Positions 28,708-63,997 of a stretch of DNA of 64,000 nt are shown here, one piece after another. The notes under the pieces are model-generated. The model was not told the DNA's origin, searched no databases, and saw only the letters and a program-made list of their open reading frames with translations. This DNA comes from Salinimicrobium catena (lineage in GTDB: Bacteria > Bacteroidota > Bacteroidia > Flavobacteriales > Flavobacteriaceae): assembly GCF_900102915.1 (NCBI RefSeq), contig NZ_FNGG01000002.1, forward strand, positions 310,001 through 374,000. The letters run 5' to 3'. The translations under genes were made by a program, and so were the position numbers. Each line of letters opens with the position of its first letter. Within the stretch, counting starts at the first letter, position 1.

Positions 28708-29752
28708 ATACTCATGGCCTGTCCTGAAACAAAGACCGGCTTACTTATGAAACCACTTAAGAACAAGTGGTAAAGCGTAACCAGAAAGATTAATTTGGGC
28801 TTTAAATTAACAGTTGTATAGGAGATAGAAAAAGGTTCAAAATGACTCATAAGCCCAAGATCCTTATTGAACATAGGGCCGGAGTACGACTTTGTTTTGA
28901 TAAACAAAAACATGGTATCTTAATCTGAAATCATCTAAGCTTTGTTTAATATCCAGATGAAAGGTAACACCGGCTCAGAAAATTAAAAGTAAGATGGCTT
29001 TCTGGATGAAATAGAATATAGATCCCTTGCACCAGGAGGTATATATTGTCATCAGAAAAAGTTGTCTCCCAACCGATCCTGGAGTATCCAATATTCAAAA
29101 AAAAGTAATCACTTTACTTATTATTCGTTAGGTGGTTAGCGACAAGAAGGTATGTGCCGGTTTTTAGCCTCAGAATTCGGGATAATGTTCTTCCAGTAGC
29201 TTAAAAGCAACCTTTACAATGTCTTCTCAAGGGATAAAAACCATTGTCACTTATTTCAAAACTATAATGTTCACTCCTTTTTAATTTACTGGTTTTTACT
29301 TGTTCTTCTTTTTAACACATTCCTTTCCAGAAAAAATTAAATCTTTTTAAAACTGTTTATTCTTCTTAACAGAAAATACTTATTGTCAGAGTGTTAAAAT
29401 TTAATTAAAAAGGTTTAAAAAAATATTAATTTATATTTTTGGACCAGATTAAAGTATATAAAATCTCGTTAATCTGAAACATGAATTTTTTCAAATGATC
29501 TAAAAAATGGGCCTGTTTAAAGGATTAGCGAATTAGATTTAAAAAAGAAAGATCATTTAAAAGTTAAAGTTTACAGAATTTTTTTTTTGGCACAGTTATT
29601 ACAAATGTTACAGCAGAGAATCAAATTAAGATTTTTTTATGTTTTCAGAATCTAGCTTTAACGAAAAATTGGAAATCATCAAAACCTATAATAATCATAA
29701 AAGCAATGTACTACCCAAAGGTATGTTGCTAACTAATGCAAAACACCTACTT
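28708..29752. other. Long non-coding gap before the astacin-like gene
   Basis: About 1 kb without a credible gene. The only ORF over 80 codons (minus strand, 28662-28913) overlaps the terminator and has no family features. The second half (about 29270-29640) is extremely AT-rich. TATTTTTG at 29434-29441 fits the -7 consensus but is 310 bases from the next start codon, implying either a long 5' leader or a chance match. It could be the remains of a decayed gene; no homology was recognisable by eye. Confidence 0.5.
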
Positions 29753-30802
29753 ATGAGAAAGTTGAAATTTGTTTATTTGTTGCCAGCTTTGGCTTTATTG
29801 GCGTCATGTAGTAAAGACGATCCTAATGAATTAGAAGAAGTAGACGGTACGGAGACTGCCGTAGAAATGGTTGAAACAGATGCGATGGCTGAAGTTGCTA
29901 ATGCTGATGCTCCCGGAAGTGTACGTGAAATGTACTTTGGGGGTCATAAAGTTCCTGTTGAAGAATTTAATGGGGAATATGTTTATCAGGGAGACATAAT
30001 TTTACCAAATGACATGGTATCTGCAGAAGAAGTGCAGGTAGTGTATGATAAGGGAGATTCGCCTGAGAACAAAAGTGTGGGGCGAACTTCGGCAAGATGG
30101 CCAAATAATACTGTATATTATGCCATAGACAGTAATTTAGATAATAAATCCAGGGTATACGATGCTATATCTCACTGGGAGTCAAAAACCAATATTCAAT
30201 TTGTTGAGAGAACTTCGCAATCCAATTATGTCTATTTCGTGAGCGGATCAGGTTGCTCCTCTTATATTGGAATGATTGGGGGAAAACAGAATATTACGCT
30301 TTCCAGCAGCTGCTCTACTGGAAATACTATTCATGAAATAGGTCACGCAATAGGCCTGTGGCACGAACAAAGCAGGGTAGACAGAGAGAACTACATCACT
30401 ATTAATTATGGTAATATCCAGAGTGGAAGAGAACATAATTTTTACACATATGCCGATCAGGGATTTGATGGAGCAGAGTTCACCAGTGCTCTAGATTTTG
30501 GATCTATAATGATGTATGGTTCGTATTCCTTTTCTGCTAATGGGCAGCCTACTATTGTTAAAAAAGACGGAAGCACTTTTAACATTCAAAGAAGTGGTCT
30601 ATCGTCAGGAGATGTTACTGGAATTAATAATATGTACCCTTATAGCTCGGGTGGTGAGACCGAAGAGGAAATTTATGTAAACGGGGAGACCTATTACATA
30701 AGTGGATTAACAGTGCTTCGTTATCTTGATACCTGGTATTTCAGTACTAAATACGGATATAAACGAGTAGAATTGATCAATGATAGATGGTATTGGGTGT
30801 AA
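29753..30802 (+). CDS. Astacin-like (M12A) metalloprotease, surface lipoprotein
   Basis: Zinc endopeptidase of the astacin family. The ATG at 29753 is chosen over one at 29639 because it begins a clean lipoprotein signal (lipobox LASC at residue 19) followed by SKDDPN, a surface-export type signal. A pro-region of about 90 residues precedes the catalytic domain. The zinc motif HEIGHAIGLWHE lies at about residues 194-205 and the Met-turn SIMMYG near 251, both as in active astacins. About 50 residues follow the catalytic domain (YVNGETYYISGL...YWV). It lies downstream of the lipoprotein cluster but behind a 1-kb gap and has its own terminator. Substrate unknown. Confidence 0.88.
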   Translation: MRKLKFVYLLPALALLASCSKDDPNELEEVDGTETAVEMVETDAMAEVANADAPGSVREMYFGGHKVPVEEFNGEYVYQGDIILPNDMVSAEEVQVVYDKGDSPENKSVGRTSARWPNNTVYYAIDSNLDNKSRVYDAISHWESKTNIQFVERTSQSNYVYFVSGSGCSSYIGMIGGKQNITLSSSCSTGNTIHEIGHAIGLWHEQSRVDRENYITINYGNIQSGREHNFYTYADQGFDGAEFTSALDFGSIMMYGSYSFSANGQPTIVKKDGSTFNIQRSGLSSGDVTGINNMYPYSSGGETEEEIYVNGETYYISGLTVLRYLDTWYFSTKYGYKRVELINDRWYWV

Positions 30803-49017: not shown

Positions 49018-50016
49018 ATGAACAATAAACAGTTTGAAGTTCTTCAATCTGCAAAAGTTTTGGTGACAGGTGGAGCGGGTTTTATAGGCTCCAATCTTTG
49101 TGAAGCTTTATTAGAACTAAATGCCCGGGTGGTCTGCCTTGATAATTTTGCTACAGGTAAAAGAGAGAACCTGGAGGCTATTAAAGATCATCCAAATTTT
49201 ACTTTAATAGAAGGCGATATTCGAAACCTGGAAGACTGTAAAAAAGCGGTTTCTGGAGCAGATTATGTCCTACATGAAGCGGCATTAGGCTCGGTTCCCC
49301 GGTCCATTAATGATCCCATTACCAGTAACGATGTGAATGTTTCAGGCTTTGTCAATATGCTTGTGGCAGCACGTGATGCAGGGGTGAAACGTTTTGTTTA
49401 CGCTGCAAGCTCTTCTACCTATGGCGATTCCGAAGCACTTCCAAAAGTTGAGGATAAAATAGGAAGACCACTGTCTCCTTATGCTATCACCAAATATGTC
49501 AATGAACTGTATGCTGAAATCTTTCACAAGACCTATGGTATTGATACGATTGGCCTAAGATATTTTAATGTCTTCGGAAGAAAGCAAGATCCCAATGGAG
49601 CTTACGCGGCGGTGATCCCAAAGTTCGTGATGAAATTCATGAAACATGAAAGTCCCGTGATCAATGGTGACGGAACCTACTCCAGGGATTTTACTTATGT
49701 CGATAATGTTGTGCAAATGAATTTGCTGGCGCTGACGACTTCAAATGAGAAAGCGTTGAACGAAGTTTACAATACAGCAGTTGGAGATAGAACCAATCTT
49801 GTGGAGCTTACTCAATTACTCAGGAAATATCTTTCTGCATACGATCCTGAAATCGAGAAGGTGGAAGTGAAGCATGGGCCTAACCGGCCGGGAGATATTC
49901 CGCATTCCCTGGCATCTGTAGACAAAGCCAAAAACTTGATGGGCTACGAACCTGAATATAAAATAGAAGACGGACTTAAAGAAGCCGTGAACTGGTACTG
50001 GAAAAACCTGCAATAA
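49018..50016 (+). CDS. UDP-N-acetylglucosamine 4-epimerase (WbpP-like, SDR family)
   Basis: A 332-residue extended short-chain dehydrogenase. It has the NAD-binding TGGAGFIGSNLCE, the VPRSINDP block typical of WbpP/Gne-type epimerases, and the catalytic S...YxxxK (SSSTYGD ... YAITKY). It interconverts UDP-GlcNAc and UDP-GalNAc or their uronic acids. It is followed 21 bp later by a TviB-like dehydrogenase, the usual pair for GalNAcA-type sugars. It is the first gene of the polysaccharide locus. Confidence 0.85.
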   Translation: MNNKQFEVLQSAKVLVTGGAGFIGSNLCEALLELNARVVCLDNFATGKRENLEAIKDHPNFTLIEGDIRNLEDCKKAVSGADYVLHEAALGSVPRSINDPITSNDVNVSGFVNMLVAARDAGVKRFVYAASSSTYGDSEALPKVEDKIGRPLSPYAITKYVNELYAEIFHKTYGIDTIGLRYFNVFGRKQDPNGAYAAVIPKFVMKFMKHESPVINGDGTYSRDFTYVDNVVQMNLLALTTSNEKALNEVYNTAVGDRTNLVELTQLLRKYLSAYDPEIEKVEVKHGPNRPGDIPHSLASVDKAKNLMGYEPEYKIEDGLKEAVNWYWKNLQ

Positions 50017-50037
50017 AAATTAATTAGAACAGATTAA

Positions 50038-51333
50038 ATGGAATCAAAGAAGATCGCCGTTATCGGCCTTGGTTATGTGGGGCTGCCTTTGGCTCGCCTA
50101 TTTGCCACCAAATATCCTGTTGTGGGATTTGATATAAATAAAAGAAGAATTGAAGAGCTTCGGGAGGGTAAGGATACAACCTTAGAAGTTGAAAATGATG
50201 TTTTGCAGTCGGTTTTGTTGCAGTCAAACCCTTTAGGTGCTGAAAATGCTGAAAGCGGATTATTCTGTACAGATCAGTTGGATGATATTAAAGACTGCAA
50301 CTACTATGTCATCACTGTGCCTACACCGGTAGATAAAAATAACCGGCCAGATCTTACTCCGCTTTACAAATCCAGTGAAAGTGTAGGTAAGGTGCTTAAA
50401 AAAGGAGATATCGTGATCTATGAATCTACTGTGTTTCCTGGCGCTACCGAAGATGAATGCGTACCTGTGCTGGAGAAGAGCAGCGGCTTAAAATATAATG
50501 AAGACTTTTTTGTAGGCTATTCTCCTGAAAGAATTAATCCGGGAGATAAAGAGCATACTGTAGAAAAGATCCTGAAAGTTACGGCAGGCTCCACTCCTGA
50601 AGTGGGACAGAAAGTAAACGAACTTTACGCATCTGTGATCACTGCCGGGACCCATTTGGCACCAACTATTAAAGTTGCTGAAGCAGCAAAAGTTATCGAA
50701 AACTCTCAGAGGGATATAAATATTGCCTTTGTCAATGAGCTGGCAAAGATCTTTAATATGCTTGATATTGATACCCAGGATGTTTTAGAAGCGGCGGGAA
50801 CAAAATGGAATTTTTTACCTTTTAAACCAGGATTAGTTGGAGGGCATTGTATAGGAGTAGATCCCTATTACCTGGCTCAGAAGGCTCAGGAAATAGGATA
50901 TCATCCTGAAATTATCCTGGCCGGGAGAAGAATGAATGACAGTATGGGACACTACGTAAGCAGTGAAATAGTGAAGCTTATGCTGAAAAATGACATGAAA
51001 GTAAAAGGCTCAAAAGTTCTTGTTTTGGGAATAACCTTTAAGGAGAATTGCCCCGATGTCAGAAACACAAAAGTGGTAGATGTGGTAAAACATCTCAAAG
51101 AGTATGGCACTAATGTAACAATATATGATCCCTTAGCTAGTCCTGCAGAAGTTGAACACGAGTACGGTCTAAAAACGGTAATTAAAATACCTGAGGATAA
51201 ATTTGATGCGGTAGTCTTGGCTGTTGCCCATAATGAATTCCTGGAAATGGATCTGGAAGTCTTAAAAAATCAGAAAACAGTGATATATGACGTCAAAGGT
51301 GTCTTAAAAGACAGGTGTGATAAAAAACTTTAA
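50038..51333 (+). CDS. UDP-N-acetylhexosamine 6-dehydrogenase (TviB/WbpO-like)
   Basis: A 431-residue nucleotide-sugar dehydrogenase. The NAD-binding [14 protein letters not shown], the sequence [12 protein letters not shown] and the active-site Cys in [16 protein letters not shown] place it in the UDP-GlcNAc/GalNAc dehydrogenase branch (Vi antigen TviB, WbpO). It oxidises UDP-HexNAc to the uronic acid. Preceded by the WbpP-like epimerase and followed 12 bp later by a second, unrelated-branch dehydrogenase. Confidence 0.88.
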
Positions 51334-51345
51334 AAGAAGCATTTC

Positions 51346-52740
51346 ATGAAAATTAAAAATATTTGCTGTATTGGAGCTGGTTATGTTGGAGGGCCAACTA
51401 TGGCTGTCATTGCGCAAAAATGCCCAAAAGTAAAGGTTACCGTAGTTGATATTAATGAGCAAAGGATCCAGCTATGGAATGATCCCGATGTGAATAATAT
51501 TCCTGTTTACGAACCCGGCCTTTCCGAAATTGTTGAAGAAGCCCGGGGCAGAAATCTGTTCTTTTCCACCGATGTTGAAAAGGCGATAGATGAGGCCGAC
51601 ATGATATTCATTTCTGTCAATACCCCTACAAAAACCTACGGAATCGGGAAAGGTATGGCCGCAGATCTTAAGTGGATCGAACTCTGTGCACGACAAATCG
51701 CTGAAGTATCAAAATCTGATAAAATTGTTATTGAAAAATCCACTTTACCGGTACGTACGGCGGCTGCTTTGAAAGACATCCTGGATAGTACGGGGAATGG
51801 AGTAAAATTTCAGATCCTTTCCAATCCCGAGTTTCTTGCTGAAGGAACAGCCGTGGAAGATCTTAGGAATCCGGACAGGGTATTGATTGGTGGGGACATT
51901 GATTCTGAAGAAGGAAGGGAAGCTATGGATGCATTGGTGAATATCTATGCTTCCTGGGTGCCCAAGGAAAAGATCCTTACTACCAATGTATGGTCTTCAG
52001 AACTTTCTAAACTAACGGCAAATGCCTTTTTAGCTCAAAGAGTTTCTTCGATCAATGCCATTTCTGAACTCTGTGAAAAGACCGGTGCCGACGTGAATGA
52101 AGTAGCAAAGGCCGTTGGAATGGACAGCAGAGTGGGACCCAAGTTTCTAAAAGCCTCTGTGGGCTTTGGAGGATCTTGTTTTCAAAAAGATATTCTTAAT
52201 CTTGTTTATATCGCACGAAGCTTCAACCTGCAGGAAGTAGCCGATTATTGGGAGCAGGTGATCATCATGAACGATCATCAGAAAAGGCGTTTTGCAGCCA
52301 ACATGGTCAGGACCATGTACAATACAGTGGCAGATAAGAAGATCGCTATTCTGGGATGGGCTTTTAAGAAAGATACGAACGATACCAGGGAGTCTGCAGC
52401 CATTTATGTAGCCGATTACCTGCTGAATGAGCAGGCAGAGATCCTGGTGTACGACCCGAAGGTAACTGCAGAACAGATCTATTCCGACCTCGATTACCTT
52501 GGCAGCCGAAGCAATGATGCTAACAGGCAGGCCGTTACTGTAGTGAACGATCCTATGCAGGCATGTAAAGGCGCACACGCTATAGCGGTGCTGACAGAAT
52601 GGGATGAATTCAGACAGCTGGACTGGCAAGAGGTTTATGATAATATGCTCAAACCTGCATTCTTGTTTGATGGAAGGCGATTGCTTCGCCCAGATACAAA
52701 AAGAGAAATAGGATTTGAATTTTACGCGATAGGAAACTAA
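51346..52740 (+). CDS. UDP-glucose 6-dehydrogenase, eukaryotic-type
   Basis: A 464-residue enzyme that makes UDP-glucuronate. It follows the long UGDH type of animals and plants: N-terminus [41 protein letters not shown], the active-site Cys in [14 protein letters not shown], and [18 protein letters not shown]. This branch is distinct from the preceding TviB-like enzyme, so two different uronic acids are likely made. Gene spacing is 12 bp. Confidence 0.93.
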
Positions 52741-52778: not shown

Positions 52779-54011
52779 ATGAACTCAGAAAAAAGATCTG
52801 ATACTGCAATTTTTATAATGCCGCGTTCAAGTAGTTCCTGGGAAGGTTCTGAGGCGTTGTGGATAACAGCAGCAGGGTGGGCTTCGGCAGCAAAAAGAAA
52901 ATTTGGTAATGCTATTGTTGTTACCTCTGACAGGATTGCAGAACCTAGTGAGGTTTGGAATTACCCTCTAAACCAGAAATCCGGCAGGCAGGTGGCAAAA
53001 AGAAGATACTCTTATTTTCCTTCTTTTTGCAGGACATTATTTAACGATCTGGTTGTTTGCAAAAATCTGATGGATTGGAAATTACTTAAAAGTGATCTTC
53101 TTCAGGGTAAAAATCCGGCATTTGTTTGGGAGAAGCATGATCTATTTTTTGGACCCGGAAAGAAATTATCGCAAAAATTAAATGTACCTCTTATCAGTTA
53201 TGTTCATGCCCCGGTAGTATGGGAAGCTTCAAAATGGGGGGTGAAAAGATATTGGTGGGGAAAGTGGCTCGAAAGATTAGAGGCCCAGAGTCTTAGAAAA
53301 GCGGACCTGGTAGCAGTGGTTTCCGAAGAAGTAAAGGAGAAGGTAATGACAATGGGAGTAGCTGAAGAAAAGATACTGATCTCTCCCATGGCCGTTGAGC
53401 CTCAGCTTTTTTCAGAAAATAAACAACTCTCCCAGGAAATCAATGAAGCCTATAAACTGAAAGATAAGTTCGTTATTGGATGGACCGGAAGTTTTCGTAA
53501 GTTTCATGGTCTTGACCACGTGATCAAAGCTTTTAAAAAGGTCTCAGACAAACATCCTCATACTATTTTAATGCTGGTAGGAGATGGTGCGGAACGTCAA
53601 AATTCTGAGAGGCTTGTAAAAAAGTTAGGGATACATGATAAAGTGATCTTTACCGGGAGGTTAAAGTTTTTAGAGATCCCTCAGTATATTTCACTGTTTG
53701 ACGTCGCAGTTGTCAGCGCAAGGAGTGGTGAGGGTTTTCATTATTCTCCTTTAAAGTTGAGGGAGTATATGGCTGCAGGTAAAGCAGTGTTGGCGCCTAA
53801 TGCTGGGGAGATCCCTTCTACCTTTCAGGATGAACAAAATGTGAAGTTATTTAATGCAGGAAATATTGAGAGTCTTAAAAACGGAATGTTGTTCCTCATT
53901 GAGAATGATGATAAAAAACAGGAAATAGCGCAGAATGGAAAACAGAAGATCCTTGGTTCAGGAACCTGGGAGCAGGAACTGGAAAAGGCTATGAACTTTT
54001 TAGATATTTAA
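52779..54011 (+). CDS. Glycosyltransferase family 4
   Basis: A 410-residue GT-B glycosyltransferase. The C-terminal Rossmann domain has IGWTGSFRKFHGLDHVIKAF, LVGDGAERQN, VIFTGRL and the nucleotide-sugar site SARSGEGFHYSPLKLREYMAAGKAVLAPNAGE. The N-terminal acceptor domain is less conserved. Donor and acceptor cannot be deduced. It lies 38 bp after the UDP-glucose dehydrogenase gene and 4 bp before cysQ. Confidence 0.88.
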   Translation: MNSEKRSDTAIFIMPRSSSSWEGSEALWITAAGWASAAKRKFGNAIVVTSDRIAEPSEVWNYPLNQKSGRQVAKRRYSYFPSFCRTLFNDLVVCKNLMDWKLLKSDLLQGKNPAFVWEKHDLFFGPGKKLSQKLNVPLISYVHAPVVWEASKWGVKRYWWGKWLERLEAQSLRKADLVAVVSEEVKEKVMTMGVAEEKILISPMAVEPQLFSENKQLSQEINEAYKLKDKFVIGWTGSFRKFHGLDHVIKAFKKVSDKHPHTILMLVGDGAERQNSERLVKKLGIHDKVIFTGRLKFLEIPQYISLFDVAVVSARSGEGFHYSPLKLREYMAAGKAVLAPNAGEIPSTFQDEQNVKLFNAGNIESLKNGMLFLIENDDKKQEIAQNGKQKILGSGTWEQELEKAMNFLDI

Positions 54012-54015
54012 GGTT

Positions 54016-54822
54016 ATGAGAGAGAAGCTTAAAACAGCTATTGAAGCATCTGTGGCCGCGGGAAAAGCGATTATGGAAATATACAGGAATGATGATTTTG
54101 GAGTAGAAAATAAAGAAGATGATTCCCCCTTGACTCTGGCCGATAAAAAGGCCAATGAGATCATCAATGAATTTCTTGTTCCGCATGCAATACCCATTAT
54201 CAGTGAAGAGAATAAACAAATAGACTACGAGGAAAGAAAGATCTGGACACAGTGCTGGATCGTAGACCCGTTGGATGGTACAAAAGAATTCATTAAAAAG
54301 AATGATGAATTCACGGTCAATATAGCTTTTGTTGAAAAAGGTAAACCTGAACTGGGGGTTATTTTTGCACCTGCATTGAATACCTTGTATTTTGCTGTGG
54401 TTTCAGAATCAAAAGCCTTTAAGTATATTATTTCTGAAACAGGGGTGTCTGCAGAAGAAGTTTTGGATACGGCGGAAGAGATAAATCCCGCGGCTTCCAA
54501 AGGTGAGCGCCTAAAAGTGGTAGGCAGTAGATCTCATATGAATGAGGATACCCAAAGATATATTGAAGATCTTAAACAAACCTACGGAGAAGAAATTGAG
54601 ATAGTTTCCCGAGGTAGCTCTTTAAAATTTTGTCTCGTGGCCGAAGGTAATGCTCATATTTACCCGCGATTTGCGCCCACCATGGAATGGGATACGGCAG
54701 CAGGCCATGCTATTTGTGAAGCCGTAGGTTTGAAATGTGTTTTCAAGGAAACAGGGGAACCTATGACCTATAATCGGGAGGATCTTTTGAATGGCCATTT
54801 TTCAGTTTCTTATGAAGGATAA
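54016..54822 (+). CDS. cysQ: 3'(2'),5'-bisphosphate nucleotidase
   Basis: A 268-residue lithium-sensitive phosphatase of the inositol monophosphatase superfamily. The metal sites are visible: ISEEN (Glu), DPLDGTKEF and EWDTAAGHA. It hydrolyses PAP, the product left after sulfate transfer from PAPS, and so prevents feedback inhibition of sulfotransferases. Its place directly upstream of DUF2061, cysC, cysD and cysN supports this role. The 3' end overlaps the DUF2061 gene. Confidence 0.94.
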   Translation: MREKLKTAIEASVAAGKAIMEIYRNDDFGVENKEDDSPLTLADKKANEIINEFLVPHAIPIISEENKQIDYEERKIWTQCWIVDPLDGTKEFIKKNDEFTVNIAFVEKGKPELGVIFAPALNTLYFAVVSESKAFKYIISETGVSAEEVLDTAEEINPAASKGERLKVVGSRSHMNEDTQRYIEDLKQTYGEEIEIVSRGSSLKFCLVAEGNAHIYPRFAPTMEWDTAAGHAICEAVGLKCVFKETGEPMTYNREDLLNGHFSVSYEG

Positions 54823-55306
54823 AACCTACAAGAGACATATTGCCAAAGCCATTACCTGGAGAACTGTAGGTACTCTGGATACTATTGTCCTGGCCTGGCT
54901 GATCTCAGGAAATCCCTATACCGGCCTTAAAGTTGGAATTTCTGAAGTGATTACTAAAATGGTCCTTTACTATCTCCACGAAAGGGTATGGTTTAAAGTT
55001 AAAATGGGTGTTAAAAGGAATGGTGATGACAGTAAAAAACGACACCTTGCGAAAACTTTCACCTGGAGGTTCGTCGGAACTCTGGATACCATGATCCTTG
55101 CCTGGATCATTTCGGGAAGTCCTTTAACGGGTTTCAAAATTGGTGCGGCCGAAGTGGTAACCAAAATGATACTATATTATCTGCACGAGCGCACCTGGTA
55201 TAAAATCGATTTTGGTTTACCGAACAGGAAAAGGAAGAAAAAAGAGAATGAAGCCGAGCCTCAGGTGGGCACTGTAAAGAATGAAAAGATCATCGAACAG
55301 GAATAA
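54791..55306 (+). CDS. Tandem DUF2061 membrane protein
   Basis: A 171-residue protein with two copies of DUF2061: KRHIAKAITWRTVGTLDT... (about residues 12-70) and KRHLAKTFTWRFVGTLDT... (about 85-143), each with one or two hydrophobic helices and ending in YYLHERxWxK. DUF2061 genes are often near sulfate-activation genes, but their role is unknown. The ATG at 54791 has a GGGAGG-like ribosome site and overlaps cysQ by 32 bp; an ATG at 54812 closer to the first domain is an alternative. The C-terminal tail is highly charged. Confidence 0.85.
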   Translation: MAIFQFLMKDKTYKRHIAKAITWRTVGTLDTIVLAWLISGNPYTGLKVGISEVITKMVLYYLHERVWFKVKMGVKRNGDDSKKRHLAKTFTWRFVGTLDTMILAWIISGSPLTGFKIGAAEVVTKMILYYLHERTWYKIDFGLPNRKRKKKENEAEPQVGTVKNEKIIEQE

Positions 55307-55339: not shown

Positions 55340-55936
55340 TTGAAGAATATCATTAAACATACCTACCATGTATCCAGGGAAGACCGGAACAGCCAAAACG
55401 GGCATAACTCTTTTGTGATCTGGTTTACAGGATTGTCAGGTTCAGGAAAGTCAACTATTGCCAATCAACTGGAAAAAAAACTTTTTGATCTCGGGGTTAA
55501 AACCTATTCCCTGGATGGGGATAATATTAGAAGTGGATTGAACAAAGGTTTGTCGTTCACCGAGGAAGACAGGACAGAGAATAACAGAAGGATCGCCGAG
55601 GTTGCCAAACTTTTTATGGATGCCGGGCTGGTAACTATAACAGCCTTTATTTCTCCTCTTGCAGAAGACCGGGAGAAGGCGAAGGAAGTAATTGGAGATG
55701 AGGATTTTATCGAAGTATTCGTAAATACCCCGCTGGAAGTTTGTGAAGAAAGGGATGTAAAAGGCCTGTATAAAAAGGCAAGGCAGGGGGAAATCAAAAA
55801 TTTCACGGGAATTTCTTCGCCTTATGAAGCCCCCGTAAATCCTGATATTGAAATTAAAACTGAAAATGAAAGTATCGAGGAATCGGTGGAAAGGATTTTT
55901 CAGGTTCTAAAAGGAAAACTAGCATACAATGAGTAA
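55340..55936 (+). CDS. cysC: Adenylylsulfate kinase
   Basis: Phosphorylates APS to PAPS. A 198-residue P-loop kinase with Walker [10 protein letters not shown], the APS site LDGDNIRSGLNKGLSF and EVAKLFMDAGLVTITAFISP. The only available start is a TTG at 55340; no in-frame ATG precedes the Walker motif. The stop overlaps cysD by 8 bp. In combination with downstream genes this is the PAPS-making branch, not a sulfate-reduction pathway: no PAPS or sulfite reductase gene is in the window. Confidence 0.94.
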   Translation: MKNIIKHTYHVSREDRNSQNGHNSFVIWFTGLSGSGKSTIANQLEKKLFDLGVKTYSLDGDNIRSGLNKGLSFTEEDRTENNRRIAEVAKLFMDAGLVTITAFISPLAEDREKAKEVIGDEDFIEVFVNTPLEVCEERDVKGLYKKARQGEIKNFTGISSPYEAPVNPDIEIKTENESIEESVERIFQVLKGKLAYNE

Positions 55937-56834
55937 ATATTTTTTGAACTATCTAGATGAGCTGGAGTCTGAAGCGATCTATATCCTTAGAGAAGTTTGG
56001 GCTCAATTTGAAAATCCGGTCATTTTGTTTTCGGGTGGGAAGGATTCCATTTTGGTCACTCATCTGGCTAAAAAAGCATTCTATCCGGCGAAGATCCCCT
56101 TTGCCCTGATGCATGTGGATACCGGACATAACTTTCCTGAAACCATTAAGTTCAGGGATGATCTTATTAAAGAATTAGGAGTAAAACTTATTGTAGGATC
56201 TGTTCAGGAGTCTATTGACAACGGAAGAGTATCCGAGGAAAAAGGAAAAAATGCGACAAGAAATGCTCTGCAGATAACCACCTTGCTTGATGCGATAGAA
56301 GAAAACAAGATTGATTGCGCCATTGGTGGGGGAAGAAGAGATGAAGAAAAGGCCAGGGCCAAAGAACGCTTCTTTTCACATCGAAATGATTTTGGGGAAT
56401 GGGATCCCAAAAATCAGCGGCCTGAGCTGTGGAACCTTCTTAACGGGAAACACTTTGAAGGAGAGCATTTTCGGGCATTTCCTATCAGTAACTGGACAGA
56501 AATGGATGTCTGGAACTATATTAAAAGAGAAAACATTCAAATTCCATCCCTGTACTTTGCTCACGAAAGAGAAGTGGTGTGGAGAAACAATTCCTGGATT
56601 CCTACTTCAGAATTTCTGAATTTAGAAGAAGGAGAGGAGATCCATAAGAAGAAGATCCGTTTTAGAACTTTAGGAGATATTACTATCACCGGCGGAATTG
56701 AATCTGATGCAGATACTCTTGGGAAGATAGTTGAGGAGGTATCGGCAATGAGAAAAACCGAAAGAGGGGATCGTTCAGATGATAAACGTTCCGAAACTGC
56801 AATGGAAGACCGAAAAAAACAAGGGTACTTCTAA
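55929..56834 (+). CDS. cysD: Sulfate adenylyltransferase subunit 2
   Basis: ATP sulfurylase catalytic subunit. A 301-residue PP-loop enzyme with LFSGGKDSI, HVDTGHNFPET, RRDEEKARAKERFFSHR and the C-terminal RFRTLGDITITGGIES. It forms APS from ATP and sulfate, driven by the GTPase CysN encoded 50 bp downstream. It overlaps cysC by 8 bp. Confidence 0.96.
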   Translation: MSKYFLNYLDELESEAIYILREVWAQFENPVILFSGGKDSILVTHLAKKAFYPAKIPFALMHVDTGHNFPETIKFRDDLIKELGVKLIVGSVQESIDNGRVSEEKGKNATRNALQITTLLDAIEENKIDCAIGGGRRDEEKARAKERFFSHRNDFGEWDPKNQRPELWNLLNGKHFEGEHFRAFPISNWTEMDVWNYIKRENIQIPSLYFAHEREVVWRNNSWIPTSEFLNLEEGEEIHKKKIRFRTLGDITITGGIESDADTLGKIVEEVSAMRKTERGDRSDDKRSETAMEDRKKQGYF

Positions 56835-56884: not shown

Positions 56885-58141
56885 ATGGAAATAAATAACA
56901 ACCAACTCTTAAGATTCACAACTGCAGGTAGTGTAGATGATGGAAAAAGCACCCTTATCGGAAGGCTTTTATACGATTCGAAATCCATTTTTGAAGATCA
57001 ACTGGACTCCGTAACGGCAACCAGTGCCAAAAAAGGGCACGATGGTGTGGACCTGGCCCTGTTTACTGATGGCCTTAGAGATGAAAGAGAGCAAGGGATC
57101 ACTATAGATGTTGCTTACAGGTACTTTACCACCCCAAAAAGAAAGTTCATCATAGCCGATACTCCCGGGCATATTCAATACACCAGGAACATGGTGACCG
57201 GAGCATCTACGGCCAATGCCGCCGTGATTCTCATAGATGCCCGTCACGGAGTTATTGAACAGACCAAGAGACACTCATTCATAGCCTCTTTGTTGAACAT
57301 TCCACACCTGATTGTGTGCATCAATAAAATGGACCTGGTTGATTATTCTGAAGATGTATATAATGATATCATTGGGCAGTTCGAGGAATTCTCCTCTAAA
57401 CTGTTAGTGAAAGACGTTAGGTTTATACCTATTAGTGCCTTAAATGGAGACAATGTGGTCAACCGGTCAGTGAATATGGACTGGTACCAGGGAGGTACTT
57501 TACTGAACATTCTGGAAACCCTGCACATAAGCAGTGATATCAATAAAATTGATGCCCGTTTCCCCGTGCAGACGGTATTAAGGCCTCAAAGTGAGAAGCA
57601 TAGGGATTATCGCGGATACGCGGGTAGGGTCGCTAGTGGAATTTACAGACTTGGTGATGAAGTTGCGGTCCTGCCATCTGGCTTTACTTCTAAAATTCGT
57701 TCAATAAATGCCGGAGAGACTGAAGTGCAGGAAGCCTTTGCACCCATGTCTGTAGCGATCACTTTAGACGATGATATTGATGTTAGCAGGGGAGATATGA
57801 TCGTGAAAACAAATAATCAGCCGGAGAGTTCACAGGAATTTGATATAATGTTATGCTGGTTGAACAATGAGCCTGCCAAACCTCGAGCCAAATACACGAT
57901 CATGCATACCTCTAACGAACAGAGAGCGATGATCAAGGACGTGGTTTACAAGGTTGATATCAACACCTATAATCGAATTACCGATGACAAGGATCTCAGC
58001 ATGAATGATATTGGTCGCGTCAAGATTCGATGTACCCGTCCTTTAATGACCGATGCTTACCGGGACAATAGAAATACGGGAAGTATAATTTTAATTGATG
58101 AAAATACCAATGAAACCGTGGCGGCGGGGATGATTGTGTGA
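56885..58141 (+). CDS. cysN: Sulfate adenylyltransferase subunit 1 (GTPase)
   Basis: A 418-residue elongation-factor-like GTPase, regulatory subunit of ATP sulfurylase. The G-box motifs are GSVDDGKST, DTPGH and NKMDL; domains II and III follow. Here CysN is separate from CysC, unlike fused CysNC proteins. It closes the sulfate-activation block. Downstream DNA becomes visibly richer in A and T. Confidence 0.96.
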   Translation: MEINNNQLLRFTTAGSVDDGKSTLIGRLLYDSKSIFEDQLDSVTATSAKKGHDGVDLALFTDGLRDEREQGITIDVAYRYFTTPKRKFIIADTPGHIQYTRNMVTGASTANAAVILIDARHGVIEQTKRHSFIASLLNIPHLIVCINKMDLVDYSEDVYNDIIGQFEEFSSKLLVKDVRFIPISALNGDNVVNRSVNMDWYQGGTLLNILETLHISSDINKIDARFPVQTVLRPQSEKHRDYRGYAGRVASGIYRLGDEVAVLPSGFTSKIRSINAGETEVQEAFAPMSVAITLDDDIDVSRGDMIVKTNNQPESSQEFDIMLCWLNNEPAKPRAKYTIMHTSNEQRAMIKDVVYKVDINTYNRITDDKDLSMNDIGRVKIRCTRPLMTDAYRDNRNTGSIILIDENTNETVAAGMIV

Positions 58142-58177: not shown

Positions 58178-59497
58178 TTGAAAGGTATAATTAATAAAGG
58201 TTTGTTTTTTCTCTATGAGACTTATAAAAATAGACAAAGGTCTTTGGAGAAAAAATATGTCTATAAAAAATATCAAAAATCCATTGGTTACATGGGGAAG
58301 GAAGTATTTTTCAATGGGCTGATTAACCTTATTTTTCCTGAAGGCCTATCTTTAGGGAATAACGTTCACATTGGGAAAAATGCTCATTTTGACTGCAGAG
58401 GTGGAGTTGTTATTGGTGATCATACCCATATAAGTAGGAATGTTACGATTTATTCAACTAATCATGATTACGAGGGTGACTTAATTCCTTACAACAGTGA
58501 CCTTATTTGCAACAGTGTAATTATTGGAAAAGGGGTGTGGATAGGTATGAATGTTTCCATTTTACCTGGAGTTAAAATAGGTGATGGGGCTATAATTGCA
58601 ATGGGATCTGTCATTTCAAAAGATGTACCTGCTGGTAAGATTGCAGTTTCTAACCAGCAAAGATTAGTTGCTGAAAGAAATATAGATTCCTTTGATCAAA
58701 AATTAAAAACAACAAAAGTTGGCGGTAGATCTGGGTATCCGGTCAGCTCCAATTGGGTTTCTGAAAAATGTACTATTCAAGAAAAATATGAATCAACACC
58801 ACAAAATGTGATATTCATATTTTCTACAAGCAGCTATAAAAGTTTAAAATTTGTTAGCAGCGCTGATAAGGTTGAATTTACCAAAGAAATTTTTTCGACC
58901 CAGTTGAGTACTTTGTGTGTTCAATATCTAAGAGGATTGATAACAAAATTAGAAGCGGAAGATGATTTAAGGAAACTTTACTCCAGTATTTCTGTTGCCA
59001 ACCGGAATGAAAAATTCATTGAGTTTCACTCCACTTCAATTCCATTATTATCCTTGTTTTTAGAAGTGTTCCCAGATGCCAAGTTTGTTTGGTTTGTTGA
59101 GCATCCCCGATTAGTGAATGAGAGTTACCCAAAAATTCATAATGAGTACTTAAGTAGGGCTACCGTCTATGAAAGCTATTGTGAAATCAATGGTTTGGAG
59201 AAAAGTGAAATTGAAAATTCGAATAAATCAGTTGAGGAATTACGATTTTGGAAAAGGTGGAATTCGATAATTTATGGTTCATTTCAACAAATTCCACCAT
59301 CGCATAAATTCCTATTAAAATCATCTCAAAATTCAGATTTAAAAGAATTCGGGAAATTTTTACAGCTCGACATTAAAATATCTGGACCTGATTTTTATAG
59401 AAAAGAATCACAATTTGACGGAGATAACACTATGGATTTAAAAGAATATAATCAGGCCTATGATCAATTTGTAGCTTCAGAAAAATTGTCTTCTTAA
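58178..59497 (+). CDS. Hexapeptide acetyltransferase fused to a degenerate sulfotransferase-like domain
   Basis: A 439-residue protein. Residues about 40-180 are a left-handed beta-helix acyltransferase: VVIGDHTHISRNVTIYSTNHDYEG contains the expected catalytic His (residue 96), followed by IIGKGVWIGMNVSILPGVKIG. Residues about 200-439 align with the sulfotransferase-like part of the paralogue at 60939, but the PAPS-binding motifs are altered: FSTSSYKSLKF in place of the GRSGS loop and FVEHPRLVNESY where the paralogue has IRSPGSFLKS. It thus looks like an active O-acetyltransferase with a non-catalytic second half. The start is a TTG at 58178; an internal ATG at 58292 would trim 38 residues. 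It lies 36 bp after cysN and 3 bp before the flippase. Confidence 0.75.
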   Translation: MKGIINKGLFFLYETYKNRQRSLEKKYVYKKYQKSIGYMGKEVFFNGLINLIFPEGLSLGNNVHIGKNAHFDCRGGVVIGDHTHISRNVTIYSTNHDYEGDLIPYNSDLICNSVIIGKGVWIGMNVSILPGVKIGDGAIIAMGSVISKDVPAGKIAVSNQQRLVAERNIDSFDQKLKTTKVGGRSGYPVSSNWVSEKCTIQEKYESTPQNVIFIFSTSSYKSLKFVSSADKVEFTKEIFSTQLSTLCVQYLRGLITKLEAEDDLRKLYSSISVANRNEKFIEFHSTSIPLLSLFLEVFPDAKFVWFVEHPRLVNESYPKIHNEYLSRATVYESYCEINGLEKSEIENSNKSVEELRFWKRWNSIIYGSFQQIPPSHKFLLKSSQNSDLKEFGKFLQLDIKISGPDFYRKESQFDGDNTMDLKEYNQAYDQFVASEKLSS

Positions 59498-59500
59498 AAC

Positions 59501-60937
59501 ATGAATGTTGGAAAAGCTATATTGTCTGGTGTTTTTTGGAATGTACTTCAAGAAGTTATTTCCAGATCAGCTGGATTTTTTATAAAATTACTTCTTGCCA
59601 GACTTCTTTTTCCAGAGGACTTTGGTCTTATTGGTATGGCAACTGTTTTTATTTCTTTCATTCAGGTGTTTAATGATATAGGAATGAATGCGGCATTAGT
59701 TCAAAGAAAAGAGGAATTACTGGATGATAAGCATTATTATACCTCGTTTTGGACTGGGATTATTTGGTCTGGGGTTATTTATGCATTGATCTACTTTTTA
59801 ATTGCCCCATTGATAGTAGATTTCTATAATGAACATAAACTCTTGGCAATAGTCAGGGTATTGAGTCTGAGTATTTTGTTTAGTCCACTAGTTTCCATTC
59901 AAAGGGCTATTCTTACTAAGCGTTTTGATTTTAAAAAACTCTCCTTCATAAGTTTTAGTACAAGCATTGCAGCAGGGATTGTAGCAATAATTTTAGCCTT
60001 CTTAGGCTATGGTGTGTGGGCTTTGGTTTTTAATGTCGTAACTCCCGTAATTTTAAGCATTCCACTTTATTTTATGGCCACTTCTTTTATTCCAAAGTTT
60101 ATATGGGATAAAAAAGCATTTCAAGACATTTTTGGTTTTGGAGTATTTACTACCGGTTCGTCTTTATTAATTAAAGTGACGAGCCAGATGGATTATTTGT
60201 TAGTGGGAAAGTTGGTAGGAAAAATCTCTTTAGGGGTTTACACTTTTGCATTTATAGTAACCGAAATGATACGGGCTCAGATTATAAATGTTTTCACTAA
60301 AGTTATGTATCCTATTTTTAGTAAGGATCAGGATAATACGGAAAAGCTGAAATATTACTATTTGGAATTACTTAAAGTGATTTCTTTGGTAATAATCCCA
60401 CCAATGCTGTTACTAATTTATTTTACTACAGGTTTATTAACTTTTTTGTTTGGGCATAAATGGGATGCAGCTATACCGATCGTTAAAATATTTGCATGGG
60501 CTGTAATTATTCATATGCCTCTAGTTTCCATTACGGCGATGATCAGGGGGTCGGGAAAGCCAAAAACAGAACTTAATTTTCAATTTATTAGAGCTTTAGT
60601 CTTTTATCTTCCTTTAATTTTTATTGGAACTTACTATTATGGTATAATGGGAACCGCCTGGGCACACTTAATTGCCAAAGTTTTAACGGTGATATTTGGA
60701 ATCTATTTATTGAATAAATTGTTCGGAATAACTCCCATGGAAATACTGAAGGAAGTCAAAAGTTCATTATTGATAGGTTTAATTCCATTTGCCATCTTTT
60801 ACATTTTCAATGTTCCATTTTCCTGGTATTTTGAATTGATTATCTACTTGGTGGTTCTAGGTGCTGCCTACATGTTATTTGCAAAAAATACTATAGAAAG
60901 GTATATAAAGTTGTTTAGATCCTATTTAAAAAAATAA
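59501..60937 (+). CDS. Wzx-type polysaccharide flippase (MOP superfamily)
   Basis: A 478-residue membrane protein with about 12-14 helices, related to WzxC/oligosaccharide flippases (AILSGVFWNVLQEVISRSAGFFIKLLLARLL, LARLLFPEDFGLIGMATVF, DYLLVGKLVGKISLG). It moves lipid-linked polysaccharide units across the inner membrane. It sits between the two acyltransferase-sulfotransferase fusions. Spacing is 3 bp upstream and 1 bp downstream, so the three are surely cotranscribed. No polymerase (Wzy) is seen before the window ends. Confidence 0.9.
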   Translation: MNVGKAILSGVFWNVLQEVISRSAGFFIKLLLARLLFPEDFGLIGMATVFISFIQVFNDIGMNAALVQRKEELLDDKHYYTSFWTGIIWSGVIYALIYFLIAPLIVDFYNEHKLLAIVRVLSLSILFSPLVSIQRAILTKRFDFKKLSFISFSTSIAAGIVAIILAFLGYGVWALVFNVVTPVILSIPLYFMATSFIPKFIWDKKAFQDIFGFGVFTTGSSLLIKVTSQMDYLLVGKLVGKISLGVYTFAFIVTEMIRAQIINVFTKVMYPIFSKDQDNTEKLKYYYLELLKVISLVIIPPMLLLIYFTTGLLTFLFGHKWDAAIPIVKIFAWAVIIHMPLVSITAMIRGSGKPKTELNFQFIRALVFYLPLIFIGTYYYGIMGTAWAHLIAKVLTVIFGIYLLNKLFGITPMEILKEVKSSLLIGLIPFAIFYIFNVPFSWYFELIIYLVVLGAAYMLFAKNTIERYIKLFRSYLKK

Positions 60938-60938
60938 A

Positions 60939-62279
60939 ATGTTGATACAGAAGATTAATTTTATACTGACCAAAATATTCCTGCTAATTTTTGAGCCAAC
61001 CAGGGTAGGGTATTTTAAATACCTTTTCTTCAAAAATGTTCAAAAGACTGGCGAAGGAGTAAAGATAACCGGTAAAATCAAAGTTATTAATAATGCTGGT
61101 TTAACCGTAGGCGGTAATGTATATTTTGGAGAAGACGTTGAAATGAGATGCCATGGAGGAGTTATAATCGGAAATGATGTTATAATTGAGGATGATTGTA
61201 GAATTATTTCAAGTTACCCTGTGGTTCGCAATAACTATGACCCCACTTTTATTTCAGAACTACCCGGGTCAATTATCATAGGCGATAATGTATTAATAGG
61301 TAAAGGAAGTATAATCAGGTCAGAAGTTGAAATTCCTTCCAACACGGTCATCCCACCTTATTCATTTATCGGTACTCCTGCAGATTTGTCACGAACTACT
61401 GCAACTGCTCAAAATTTTCACGGAGCAAAAAGGCAAGAGTATGATCGAGTATCAGTAATCGAAAAATACGAGGAATTCCCAGATGAAGTCGTTTTTGTGT
61501 TTTCTACAGGAAGATCAGGCTCTAACGCCATTGAAACTCTGGCGAATAAAAATCCTCGGATCAATGCTTTCCATGAACCTTTTTATGCTCAGATAAAGAT
61601 CTTAGCTTTTAATTATTCTGCAGGTTTTATTTCTGAAGAAGAAGCAAAGAACAATTTGATCAAAATATATTTGTCTGCACCAATCTCCCAAAGGAAGAAG
61701 ATTTACTTAGAATCAGATCAAAAGCTTGTTCCTTTTATTAAGATAATTTCCTCACTTTTCCCAAAGGCTAAATTTATATGGCTTATTAGAAGTCCTGGTA
61801 GCTTCTTGAAAAGTGCAAAGGCACGAGGGTGGTTTTTAAATGACTATCCTACGGTCTTAAATAATCAGGTCTTAATAACTCCAGAGATGATGTCTGACGC
61901 CTGTAGGTTAACTGGAGATTTTACTGATGAATTTACGAAAGAAGAATGGCTGTCTTTAAGTCATGATGATAAAATTCTATGGTATTGGTTTTATTGGAAT
62001 AAATTAATTGAACACCAATTGAGATCTGTTTCGAATAAAAAATATCTTTTAAAGTTAGAAGATATCAATACCAATGCAAAATCTTTTTTTGAATTCGTTA
62101 GTAACGAATTTAACTCCGATTGGAAACCTGAGGTCACGAATAAGGTAAAAAAGAAACATCAAAAAAAATATTCCAGTGTCACCAATAACAAAGTCAACTA
62201 TTATGATCTTGAAAAATTAAAGGACTATTATTCCAGTTTGGATGAAAATATTTTCTCACTAGAAAGAATAAATGAATGA
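60939..62279 (+). CDS. Sulfotransferase domain fused to a degenerate hexapeptide domain
   Basis: A 446-residue paralogue of the protein at 58178. The N-terminal beta-helix (about residues 40-165) keeps hexapeptides (VYFGEDVEMRCHGGVIIGNDVIIEDD) but has no His at the acetyltransferase position (ISSYPVVRNNYDP instead) and looks catalytically dead. The C-terminal domain (about 180-446) has a sulfotransferase-type 5'-phosphosulfate loop FSTGRSGSNAI near residue 190 and a 3'-phosphate loop WLIRSPGSFLKSAKARG near 285. It is a candidate PAPS-dependent carbohydrate sulfotransferase, using PAPS from CysC/CysD/CysN nearby. It overlaps the next gene by 4 bp. Confidence 0.76.
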   Translation: MLIQKINFILTKIFLLIFEPTRVGYFKYLFFKNVQKTGEGVKITGKIKVINNAGLTVGGNVYFGEDVEMRCHGGVIIGNDVIIEDDCRIISSYPVVRNNYDPTFISELPGSIIIGDNVLIGKGSIIRSEVEIPSNTVIPPYSFIGTPADLSRTTATAQNFHGAKRQEYDRVSVIEKYEEFPDEVVFVFSTGRSGSNAIETLANKNPRINAFHEPFYAQIKILAFNYSAGFISEEEAKNNLIKIYLSAPISQRKKIYLESDQKLVPFIKIISSLFPKAKFIWLIRSPGSFLKSAKARGWFLNDYPTVLNNQVLITPEMMSDACRLTGDFTDEFTKEEWLSLSHDDKILWYWFYWNKLIEHQLRSVSNKKYLLKLEDINTNAKSFFEFVSNEFNSDWKPEVTNKVKKKHQKKYSSVTNNKVNYYDLEKLKDYYSSLDENIFSLERINE

Positions 62280-63172
62280 TTGATTTAATATCTGTTATAA
62301 TCCCTACCTATAATAGACATCATATAATTCTTGATGCCATAAAGAGTGTAGAAAACCAAACTTATAAAAACTGGGAGTTGATCGTTGTTGACGATTGTTC
62401 AACCGATCAAACTCAGGAATTACTTGAGGGAAGAAAAGGTTTAAAATTCATTAAATTACCAGAAAACAAAGGGAATGCAGGAGCCAGAAATGAAGGGGTG
62501 AAGAATGCAAGTGGTAAATATATTGTGTTTCTCGATAGTGATGACCAAATGGAAGTGAATTGTCTTGAATTGTTTTCTGAATTATTAAAAAACAAGCCTG
62601 AGACCAAATTCGCATTTGGAGGTTATTATATATTAAATAAAGAAACCGGAACCAAGAATAAAAAAATGTGGAAACCCGATCCGTCCAAAAGTTTCCTTCG
62701 AGAACTAAAAATAGGTACCGGTTGTGGTTTATTAGTTCAAAAGGAGTGTTTTGAAAAAATAGGATTTTTTGATGAGAGGTTAAGAGTGGCTGTAGATACG
62801 GATTGGCTTATAAGATTGGAAAAAGAGTTTTCATATGAGGTAATTGATGAATGTTTGGTCACTGTTGTTAAACACCAAGGCGAACGAGTAAGAAATGATA
62901 AAAGTAAGCTTCTAAAATCGTATGAAATTATTCTAGAAAAGAATAAAAAGGATATTTATTCCGATCCTTCTATTTTATTTAAATTCTTATATAAGCTACA
63001 ATGGTTAAATTATCAGTCTGGTAATTTAGGAAATGGAAATAAGTTTTTGTTGAGACAATTGAAGCATGGTGTTTTTAAATTAAAAGCTTTTTATTCCTTT
63101 ATACTGTATAATTTTTTACCTACAAATATTGCCCGGAACATTCATAATAAATTAAGTGGTTCCACAATATAA
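62276..63172 (+). CDS. Glycosyltransferase family 2
   Basis: A 298-residue GT-A glycosyltransferase. The nucleotide-sugar motif VSVIIPTYNR (here ISVIIPTYNR), VDDCSTD and the metal-binding DSDD (VFLDSDDQ) are present. The C-terminal 100 residues are variable. It overlaps the upstream fusion gene (ATGA). It presumably adds a sugar of the repeating unit; specificity is unknown. Confidence 0.9.
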   Translation: MIDLISVIIPTYNRHHIILDAIKSVENQTYKNWELIVVDDCSTDQTQELLEGRKGLKFIKLPENKGNAGARNEGVKNASGKYIVFLDSDDQMEVNCLELFSELLKNKPETKFAFGGYYILNKETGTKNKKMWKPDPSKSFLRELKIGTGCGLLVQKECFEKIGFFDERLRVAVDTDWLIRLEKEFSYEVIDECLVTVVKHQGERVRNDKSKLLKSYEIILEKNKKDIYSDPSILFKFLYKLQWLNYQSGNLGNGNKFLLRQLKHGVFKLKAFYSFILYNFLPTNIARNIHNKLSGSTI

Positions 63173-63181
63173 ATCCCTACA

Positions 63182-63997
63182 ATGAAAGTTTTAGTCTACC
63201 ATAAAATCCATGATAAAACTCAGTTTGAGAAGCAGATTAAGTTTCTCAAACGCAGCTATAATATTATAGACCCTACTTGCCTTGAGGATCACCTTTGCCA
63301 CGGAAAATCTTTACCAGAGAATTCCTTGATGATAACTTTTGATGACGGGGACTCTACATTATATAAAAATGCATTTCCGGTCTTAAAACGAGAAAATATT
63401 CCGGCTATCATATTTGTAATTACAAATTTAATCGGAACCAATGAACCTTTCTGGTGGGATGAGTTGGAATACCTGTTAGGGGAAGAAGAAGGGAACAATA
63501 AGGTCTGGGAAGTCAAAACCTGGCCCAATAAGAAAAGAGTCCAATATCTCCAGGAATTAAGATCAAAATCAAATAAAGAGCAATATAAATATCCTCAACT
63601 TTCTATTCAGGAGTTAAAGGAGATGCAACATGCGAACATACTTATTGCTAATCACACCCATACTCACCCAATGCTGGATAAATGTGAGGAAGATGAATTG
63701 GAAGAAGAACTTTTTAATTCTACTGAAAAGCTGAAGGAGCGAAATTTTAATTATCAGTATTTCGCCTATCCAAACGGGAATTATTCAGAAAGGGCTGAGA
63801 AAAAGTTAGTTCAGCATGGTATAAAATATTCCTTTTTATTTGACCACAAGATCAATACCGGTAAACTTAATCCGTTGCGTATTTCCAGGCTAAAAGTGAA
63901 TGATAATACTCCAATTTGGAAATTAAAATTCATCTTAAGTGGATGGCATAGCAGAGTACTGCCGGTAACGAGAACTTTAGGTAAATTAAGAAGATGA
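63182..63997 (+). CDS. Polysaccharide deacetylase (NodB-homology)
   Basis: A 271-residue carbohydrate esterase 4-type enzyme, complete at the window edge. Catalytic motifs are MITFDDGD (catalytic and metal Asp) and NHTHTHP (metal His). It should remove N- or O-acetyl groups from a glycan. The presence of a HexNAc pathway upstream suggests N-acetylhexosamine as the target, which is inference. No signal peptide is seen, so action may be on a lipid-linked intermediate in the cytoplasm or the start may be mis-set. Confidence 0.85.
   Translation: MKVLVYHKIHDKTQFEKQIKFLKRSYNIIDPTCLEDHLCHGKSLPENSLMITFDDGDSTLYKNAFPVLKRENIPAIIFVITNLIGTNEPFWWDELEYLLGEEEGNNKVWEVKTWPNKKRVQYLQELRSKSNKEQYKYPQLSIQELKEMQHANILIANHTHTHPMLDKCEEDELEEELFNSTEKLKERNFNYQYFAYPNGNYSERAEKKLVQHGIKYSFLFDHKINTGKLNPLRISRLKVNDNTPIWKLKFILSGWHSRVLPVTRTLGKLRR

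Follow-up and report, generated by a model that had tools for sequence, protein, structure and literature searches.

Why would one polysaccharide gene cluster encode two proteins that each join an acetyltransferase domain to a sulfotransferase domain, one on either side of a flippase gene? The question is raised by a stretch of 64,000 nucleotides of Salinimicrobium catena DNA (RefSeq assembly GCF_900102915.1, 26 contigs; contig NZ_FNGG01000002.1, positions 310,001 to 374,000), hereafter called the window. Within it, fusion A (58178..59497, plus strand; 439 amino acids, TTG start) comprises an LbH (hexapeptide) O-acetyltransferase domain at about residues 1-166, a long linker at about residues 167-205 and a sulfotransferase-derived domain at about residues 205-439. 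Fusion C (60939..62279, plus strand; 446 amino acids, ATG start) comprises an LbH domain, a short linker and a sulfotransferase domain. The Wzx-type flippase gene between them (59501..60937, plus strand; Polysacc_synt_3, 5.7e-76) starts 3 bases past A and ends 1 base before C, and all three form a single-strand block. An earlier note, made from the sequence alone, had proposed that the two fusions arose when an ancestral bifunctional enzyme was duplicated and each copy lost one of its active sites. Drawing on the architecture, site residues, both-site relatives and cluster content seen here, we lean towards the answer that both proteins derive from a bifunctional enzyme, and that A now serves as an acetyltransferase and C as a sulfotransferase, both acting before export.

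Architecture and active sites of the two fusions

A and C are 25% identical over 406 aligned positions that include the linker between the domains (E 1e-30). Because the alignment spans this linker, the two proteins have one common architecture, beyond merely two common domains, and the description of homologous fusions on either side of the flippase gene holds for both open reading frames (ORFs). Both reach the Pfam cut-off of 27 for Hexapep, A with 54.5 bits and C just over it with 29.1 bits. For Sulfotransfer_3, which has the same cut-off value, A falls well below (13.2 bits) and C just below (25.7 bits). The C-terminal part of A is recovered from its own genome by a sulfotransferase profile built without A (E 6.6e-9). 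When compared with 20 other sulfotransferase domains, A finds its top match in C (67.4 bits), followed at 50.4 bits by L073, a fusion from another genome described below; the top match of C is L073 (147 bits). In addition, the linker string EKYE..P..V.F.FST is common to A and C alone among the eight fusions compared. A one-residue insertion common to A and C appears in only three of six alignments and was not counted.

The acetyltransferase site is present in A, as the earlier note had claimed. His96 of A pairs with His115 of LacA (counted in the alignment), which we take to be catalytic. Two further histidine columns, at positions 64 and 84 of A, are invariant in nine LbH proteins that were picked for bearing the catalytic histidine. 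At the three columns that hold histidine in all nine of these proteins, C has Tyr, Ile and Pro, with Pro at the catalytic column. The claim that C lacks the acetyltransferase histidine is thus refined to loss of the whole set of LbH histidines, more than one residue.

The site for the sulfate donor 3′-phosphoadenosine 5′-phosphosulfate (PAPS) presents the reverse picture. At the 5′-PAPS loop (58820..58843, plus strand) A reads FSTSSYKS vs FSTGRSGS in C, such that a gap-free reading sets STSSYKS against STGRSGS. C retains both PAPS loops, with STGRSGS at residues 189-195 and with R284 and S292. In C numbering, A lacks G191, R192, G194, H212, R284, S292 and R296 in all six alignments, and in all six it carries Glu at both the Arg and the Ser columns of the 3′-phosphate-binding (3′-PB) site. 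R192, R284 and S292 are present in all eight fusions other than A. We presume that the PAPS-loop residues have their usual roles in this comparison, and the same loops are matched in a profile alignment to the chains of TPST1 and CurM. The proposed loss of the PAPS loops from A is therefore borne out in its key residues, with the refinement that S189 and T190, the opening of the loop, are always kept. The state of S193 varies with the alignment. E213, the Glu of the HE pair in C, is kept in four of the six alignments and not in the other two, and a candidate loss of this residue was withdrawn as alignment-dependent.

Elsewhere in this domain A retains 17 of the 41 columns that are conserved in the other eight fusions (16-19 of 40-54 in other alignments). 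The core residues that it keeps include F213, T217, P299, A301, K302, F303, W305, W358, N362 and I365; in C numbering, retained core residues include F186, P275, K278, F279, W281, W350 and N354.

Structure prediction of the single chains, with alignments of eight sequences each, was informative for one of the two proteins. The AlphaFold model of C has a predicted local distance difference test (pLDDT) score of 72.6 and a predicted TM-score (pTM) of 0.70. Foldseek matches its second domain to TPST1, 3-OST-1 and NDST1, with TPST1 at the top (5wrj, E 5.2e-7), 3uan at E 1.8e-5 and target-normalised TM values of 0.51-0.59, and matches its first domain to maltose acetyltransferase. The model resembles sulfotransferases bound to 3′-phosphoadenosine 5′-phosphate (PAP), and a sulfotransferase fold for the C-terminal domain of C is supported at the level of the model. 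The model of A is poor (pLDDT 61.6, pTM 0.41) and too weak to show which fold its second half adopts. Each model has an LbH coil together with a helix at the N-terminus.

Relatives in other genomes

A search of genome contigs matched 164 stretches, six of which encode a relative (L073-L078), and all six relatives carry both domains. A seventh genome, G682 from the window's own phylum, encodes a fusion that is cut by a contig end and has both motifs. As the earlier note had hoped, fusions with both active sites intact do exist, in four of these seven other genomes: L074 (Aestuariicella hydrocarbonica), L076 (Loktanella atrilutea), L077 (a metagenome-assembled genome, MAG, of the Flavobacteriales) and G682. 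The remaining three resemble C in that the sulfotransferase site is intact and the LbH histidine is absent: L073 (Saprospiraceae MAG), L045/L075 (Bacteroidia MAG) and L078 (Gemmatimonadetes MAG). No fusion in the state of A was found among the seven genomes. Together the seven span Bacteroidota, Pseudomonadota and Gemmatimonadota, and the both-site forms occur in the first two of these phyla.

The C-like relatives lack all three LbH histidines, as C does, and have Lys (L045), Glu (L073) and Arg (L078) at the catalytic column. Uniqueness of the loss in C is thereby ruled out. W121 is likewise absent from C, L045, L078 and, by deletion, L073, and also from L074, which retains its histidine. Among the six other complete fusions, L045 misses the Hexapep cut-off (24.5 bits) and L073, whose LbH domain is partly deleted, has no Hexapep match.

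The fusion family is rare among the genomes searched. With C as the query, no member of the family was found in 118 related genomes beyond that of the window. The sulfotransferase part of C recovered a fusion in one of 394 genomes of the class (G202), and profile A2 recovered one in one of 394 genomes of the phylum (G682); in these class and phylum counts an ORF of >400 amino acids was taken as the sign of a fusion, and the sets of 118, 394 and 394 overlap. Searches with alignment A3 around known carriers (238, 258, 194, 1, 13 and 2 genomes; thresholds 1e-30 or 1e-25, with 6-8 first-pass candidates per genome scored in the three largest sets) returned only known fusions, and yielded two of the stand-alone LbH homologues described below. 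Neither alignment A3 nor L077 by itself found a relative among viral contigs. A plasmid search with L076 gave five records, each with one matched stretch that covers 26-37% of the query within its first 192 residues.

Some relatives of the LbH half stand alone. One of them, L081 of the Saprospiraceae genome G840, is a protein of 189 amino acids with its His intact, encoded about 14 kb from L073, and a solo sulfotransferase lies about 1 kb past L081. The L081 tail, R-N..HY..L....GG..G, is the one that leads to the sulfotransferase part in the fusions; in A, a linker of the R-N/D..HY..L...GG..G type aligns at approximately 58676..58774 (plus strand). Stand-alone LbH proteins with this tail also occur in L090 and L091, and in L090 the next genes encode a flippase and a sulfotransferase. 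Such proteins could be either fusions that have shed their second half or the unfused source of the LbH domain, and the LbH tree leaves both readings in place. By analogy, the combination of a C-like fusion and a solo LbH protein in G840 would parallel the arrangement of A and C. Among the neighbourhoods retrieved for the other fusions (mostly 13 to 21 kb, the shortest 11 kb), only those of L074 and L076 include a flippase-like gene.

Comparison with known systems sets the fusions apart from each parent group. They resemble LacA, maltose acetyltransferase, WcaF, WbbJ and NeuO in their Hexapep repeats and in the pairing of A His96 with LacA His115, and the best NCBIfam match of A is the WcaF family NF007797 (78.3 bits, far under the cut-off of 192). 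They differ from these hexapeptide sugar O-acetyltransferases in being fused to a sulfotransferase domain and, for C, in lacking the catalytic histidine. Similarly, C and the other fusions keep the 5′-phosphosulfate-binding (5′-PSB) loop and the 3′-PB Arg and Ser of Sulfotransfer_3 proteins, TPST, heparan 3-OST and NDST, and the model of C has a comparable fold, whereas an N-terminal LbH domain distinguishes the fusions from these PAPS-dependent enzymes and A lacks the loop residues. NDST1 also places an acyl-handling and a sulfotransferase domain in one chain that acts on a polysaccharide (PMC10864358); its deacetylase domain removes N-acetyl groups, whereas the fusions carry an LbH domain predicted to add acetyl groups.

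No LbH-sulfotransferase fusion appears in the titles and abstract openings listed from the open-access literature, a set that leaves most subscription papers and preprints outside, and phrases that name an acetyltransferase-sulfotransferase fusion gave no match in open-access full text.

As a separate observation, the solo sulfotransferase genes at L046:6456-8675 and L047:8363-10551 each adjoin a gene for a protein of 441-443 amino acids. The two neighbours have similar starts by eye, and may encode a partner.

Possible origin of the pair and proposed division of labour

Duplication with reciprocal loss is our best reading of the pair, because C is the best sulfotransferase match of A and because the two have a common linker motif; the very long branch of A keeps the duplication step uncertain. 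A bifunctional ancestor of A and C is plausible since both-site fusions occur in four of the seven other genomes. In a sulfotransferase tree of the eight fusions without A and 10 solo domains, the fusions form one clade (support 100/100), and a fusion clade that includes A is recovered with all 12 solo domains present (88/96). L063 and L064, which have very long branches, were omitted from some of the sulfotransferase trees and are included in the 88/96 tree; L062 (no ORF over the match) and other weak profile matches lie outside the trees. A and C are sisters in two sulfotransferase trees (99/94 and 98/95), and in a tree of fusions only they are adjacent, and the branch that separates them from the others has 85/87. 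Tests of alternative placements with the approximately unbiased (AU) method disfavour A beside L073 in the tree with solo domains (p 0.044) and A beside L077 in the fusion-only tree (p 0.022).

Two other origins for the likeness were set aside. Independent joining of the domains in A and in C is ruled out, since the alignment crosses the linker and the sulfotransferase parts of the two proteins group with those of the other fusions, and chance likeness of two common folds is ruled out by the existence of fusions with both sites. Within the family, L078 (no His) and G682 (His) are sisters in sulfotransferase trees (97/97, 99/96, 99/96, 94/90 and 94/95) and in the LbH tree (89/76), which indicates repeated loss of the acetyltransferase site.

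Several results weigh against a single duplication followed by a clean split. A has a branch of 7.7-10 changes per column vs 0 to 2 for C, and long-branch attraction may explain its pairing with C. With solo domains in the tree, A beside L077 (p 0.058), L074 (0.085) or L076 (0.066) is not rejected by the AU test; with fusions only, the same is true of A beside L074 (0.094) or L073 (0.172). When C is removed, A sits unresolved beside the other fusions. In the LbH tree, which includes 16 of the 28 loci L009-L036 (those with a plus-strand ORF over the match), A lies near L077, L090 and L076, and C lies elsewhere on a long branch; joining A and C there is 4.9 log units worse, a cost that is not rejected (p-AU 0.22). 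The fold of the second half of A rests on sequence, because its model is weak and the 50 Foldseek matches listed are all of LbH type, mostly acetyl- and acyltransferases, with no sulfotransferase among the matches listed. The losses in A are also not clearly concentrated at the PAPS site: A retains 0-1 of seven site columns, chosen post hoc, with p from 0.013 to 0.25 by alignment. This column test decides nothing, and the claim that A is no sulfotransferase relies instead on the absence of the Arg, Gly and Ser residues themselves. Finally, no homologue of cysQ, cysC, cysD or cysN was found in the stretches around the other fusions, so that adjacency to PAPS genes characterises the window's cluster and is no family trait. 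Of the scenario in the earlier note, the bifunctional ancestor gains from the both-site relatives, and the pairing of A with C gains from the best match, the sisterhood and the linker; a single duplication is weakened by the long branch of A and by the rival placements that are not rejected.

The pair could also have been assembled by horizontal transfer, if A came from a bifunctional lineage resembling L077 and C from one that resembled L073 and had already lost the histidine; the division of labour would be the same. Such separate acquisition is unlikely in our judgement, although the match of 147 bits between C and the equally His-less L073 fits it, as does the LbH domain of A, which is closest to that of the both-site fusion L077 (45% identical). 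The block from A to the glycosyltransferase gene that follows C also looks imported, because of its low GC content (31-34% in A, the flippase gene, C and the glycosyltransferase gene vs 41% in cysQ-cysN and in the window) and because C has no match in 11 other genomes of the genus, two of which are only 74-75% complete. Against two independent arrivals stand a sulfotransferase domain of A that is nearest to that of C and an EKYE linker string found in these two fusions alone, and a grouping of C with L073 to the exclusion of A is weakly rejected (p 0.046).

A further scenario, compatible with the duplication reading, regards the C-terminal half of A and the LbH half of C as functionless, decaying relics. 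The many conserved sulfotransferase columns missing from A, the partly deleted LbH domain of L073 with no Hexapep match, and the existence of LbH proteins that have the fusion-type tail and no sulfotransferase part (L081, L090 and L091) would all accord with decay. Some 230 codons of A nevertheless remain open with core residues kept, which suggests some constraint, and we regard pure relics as somewhat doubtful. At the other extreme, the LbH domains might hold A and C together as an obligate hetero-oligomer, in which the dead domains complete or place the live ones within a two-headed complex. LbH enzymes are usually trimers with sites that lie between subunits. The coil and helix modelled in both proteins are consistent with a joint assembly, as is the single-strand block of genes, in which 3 bases precede the flippase gene and 1 base follows it, yet the loss of W121 and of the histidine positions from C would damage such sites in mixed trimers. 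The weight of the Trp loss is tempered by L074, which lacks this residue and keeps its histidine. We consider an obligate complex improbable.

Under descent by duplication and reciprocal loss, the ancestor would have joined an LbH O-acetyltransferase and a PAPS-dependent sulfotransferase in one glycan-decorating enzyme. For its descendants we infer the donors, the acceptor, the oligomeric state and the order of events, as well as a single duplication, from the sequences. A would form an LbH trimer that uses acetyl-CoA as the donor and His96 as the base, and its sulfotransferase-derived half would persist as an appendix with a structural or glycan-binding role. C would transfer sulfate from PAPS made by the products of the adjacent cysD, cysN and cysC genes, CysQ would clear the PAP that is released, and the LbH half of C would probably serve as a scaffold for trimer formation or oligomerisation. 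Both enzymes would modify a lipid-linked repeat unit in the cytoplasm, which the flippase encoded between them would then export.

More broadly, the fusions may constitute a new family of single-chain glycan acetyltransferase-sulfotransferases whose copy in the window was duplicated and split into two specialists, perhaps joined as a hetero-oligomer; we hold this fuller claim tentatively, as one for which the case is nearly balanced. Acetyl and sulfate groups shape the ion binding of polysaccharides, their resistance to enzymes and their contact with other cells, and one chain with both predicted activities could be of use in the preparation of glycans that carry the two decorations. Together with the recurrent loss of the acetyltransferase site, A and C provide natural examples of three states (both sites, only the acetyl one, only the sulfate one) in which to follow the passage from a bifunctional enzyme to two specialists.

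The surrounding cluster and the rest of the window

Genes for PAPS supply and PAP recycling lie directly upstream of A, all on the plus strand. These are cysQ, for a 3′(2′),5′-bisphosphate nucleotidase that recycles PAP (54016..54822; TIGR01331, 254.6 bits, cut-off 228.8); cysC, for the adenosine 5′-phosphosulfate (APS) kinase that makes PAPS (55340..55936; TIGR00455, 272 bits, cut-off 138.7); and cysD and cysN, for the subunits of sulfate adenylyltransferase (55929..56834; TIGR02039, 412.1 bits, cut-off 396.6; and 56885..58141; TIGR02034, 554.5 bits, cut-off 336.1). Only 36 bases separate the end of cysN from A. Near 58140, between the two, the GC content steps from about 41% to about 33%, a possible import boundary. 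A DUF2061 protein encoded between cysQ and cysC (54791-55306; 139.6 bits, two matched stretches) has an apparently doubled domain, and is perhaps a membrane partner in sulfate use.

Farther upstream, genes for a TviC-like nucleotide-sugar epimerase, which scores below the cut-off of the TviC model, and for two nucleotide-sugar dehydrogenases (TIGR03026, above cut-off) occupy 49018..52740 (plus strand), and these enzymes would supply acidic sugar. A GT1-type glycosyltransferase gene follows (52779..54011, plus strand; Glycos_transf_1). Downstream of C, a GT2 glycosyltransferase gene (62276..63172, plus strand) overlaps the end of C by four bases and is followed by a gene for a polysaccharide deacetylase family protein (63182..63997, plus strand). 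Further glycosyltransferase-like genes lie downstream, by the window's end, where there is also a third, separate sulfotransferase gene (L049:3-854; Sulfotransfer_3, 78.2 bits).

A cluster for a sulfated capsular polysaccharide in Cobetia marina KMM 1449 resembles this one in that genes for PAPS synthesis, CysQ and sulfotransferases lie within a polysaccharide cluster (PMC11766843). It differs in having ABC transporter genes instead of a flippase gene, and the words acetyltransferase and hexapeptide are absent from the main text of that report (PMC11766843).

Elsewhere in the window, five lipoprotein-like proteins are encoded at 27-2753, 22583-24295, 24413-25837, 25933-26871 and 26989-28653, the last four in tandem. 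Their N-terminal regions are similar by eye (LSFG..V.DL type) and have no Pfam match at 1e-3, and three of the five carry thrombospondin type 3 repeats. A gene for an astacin (M12A) metalloprotease (29639-30802; 164.9 bits) adjoins this array.

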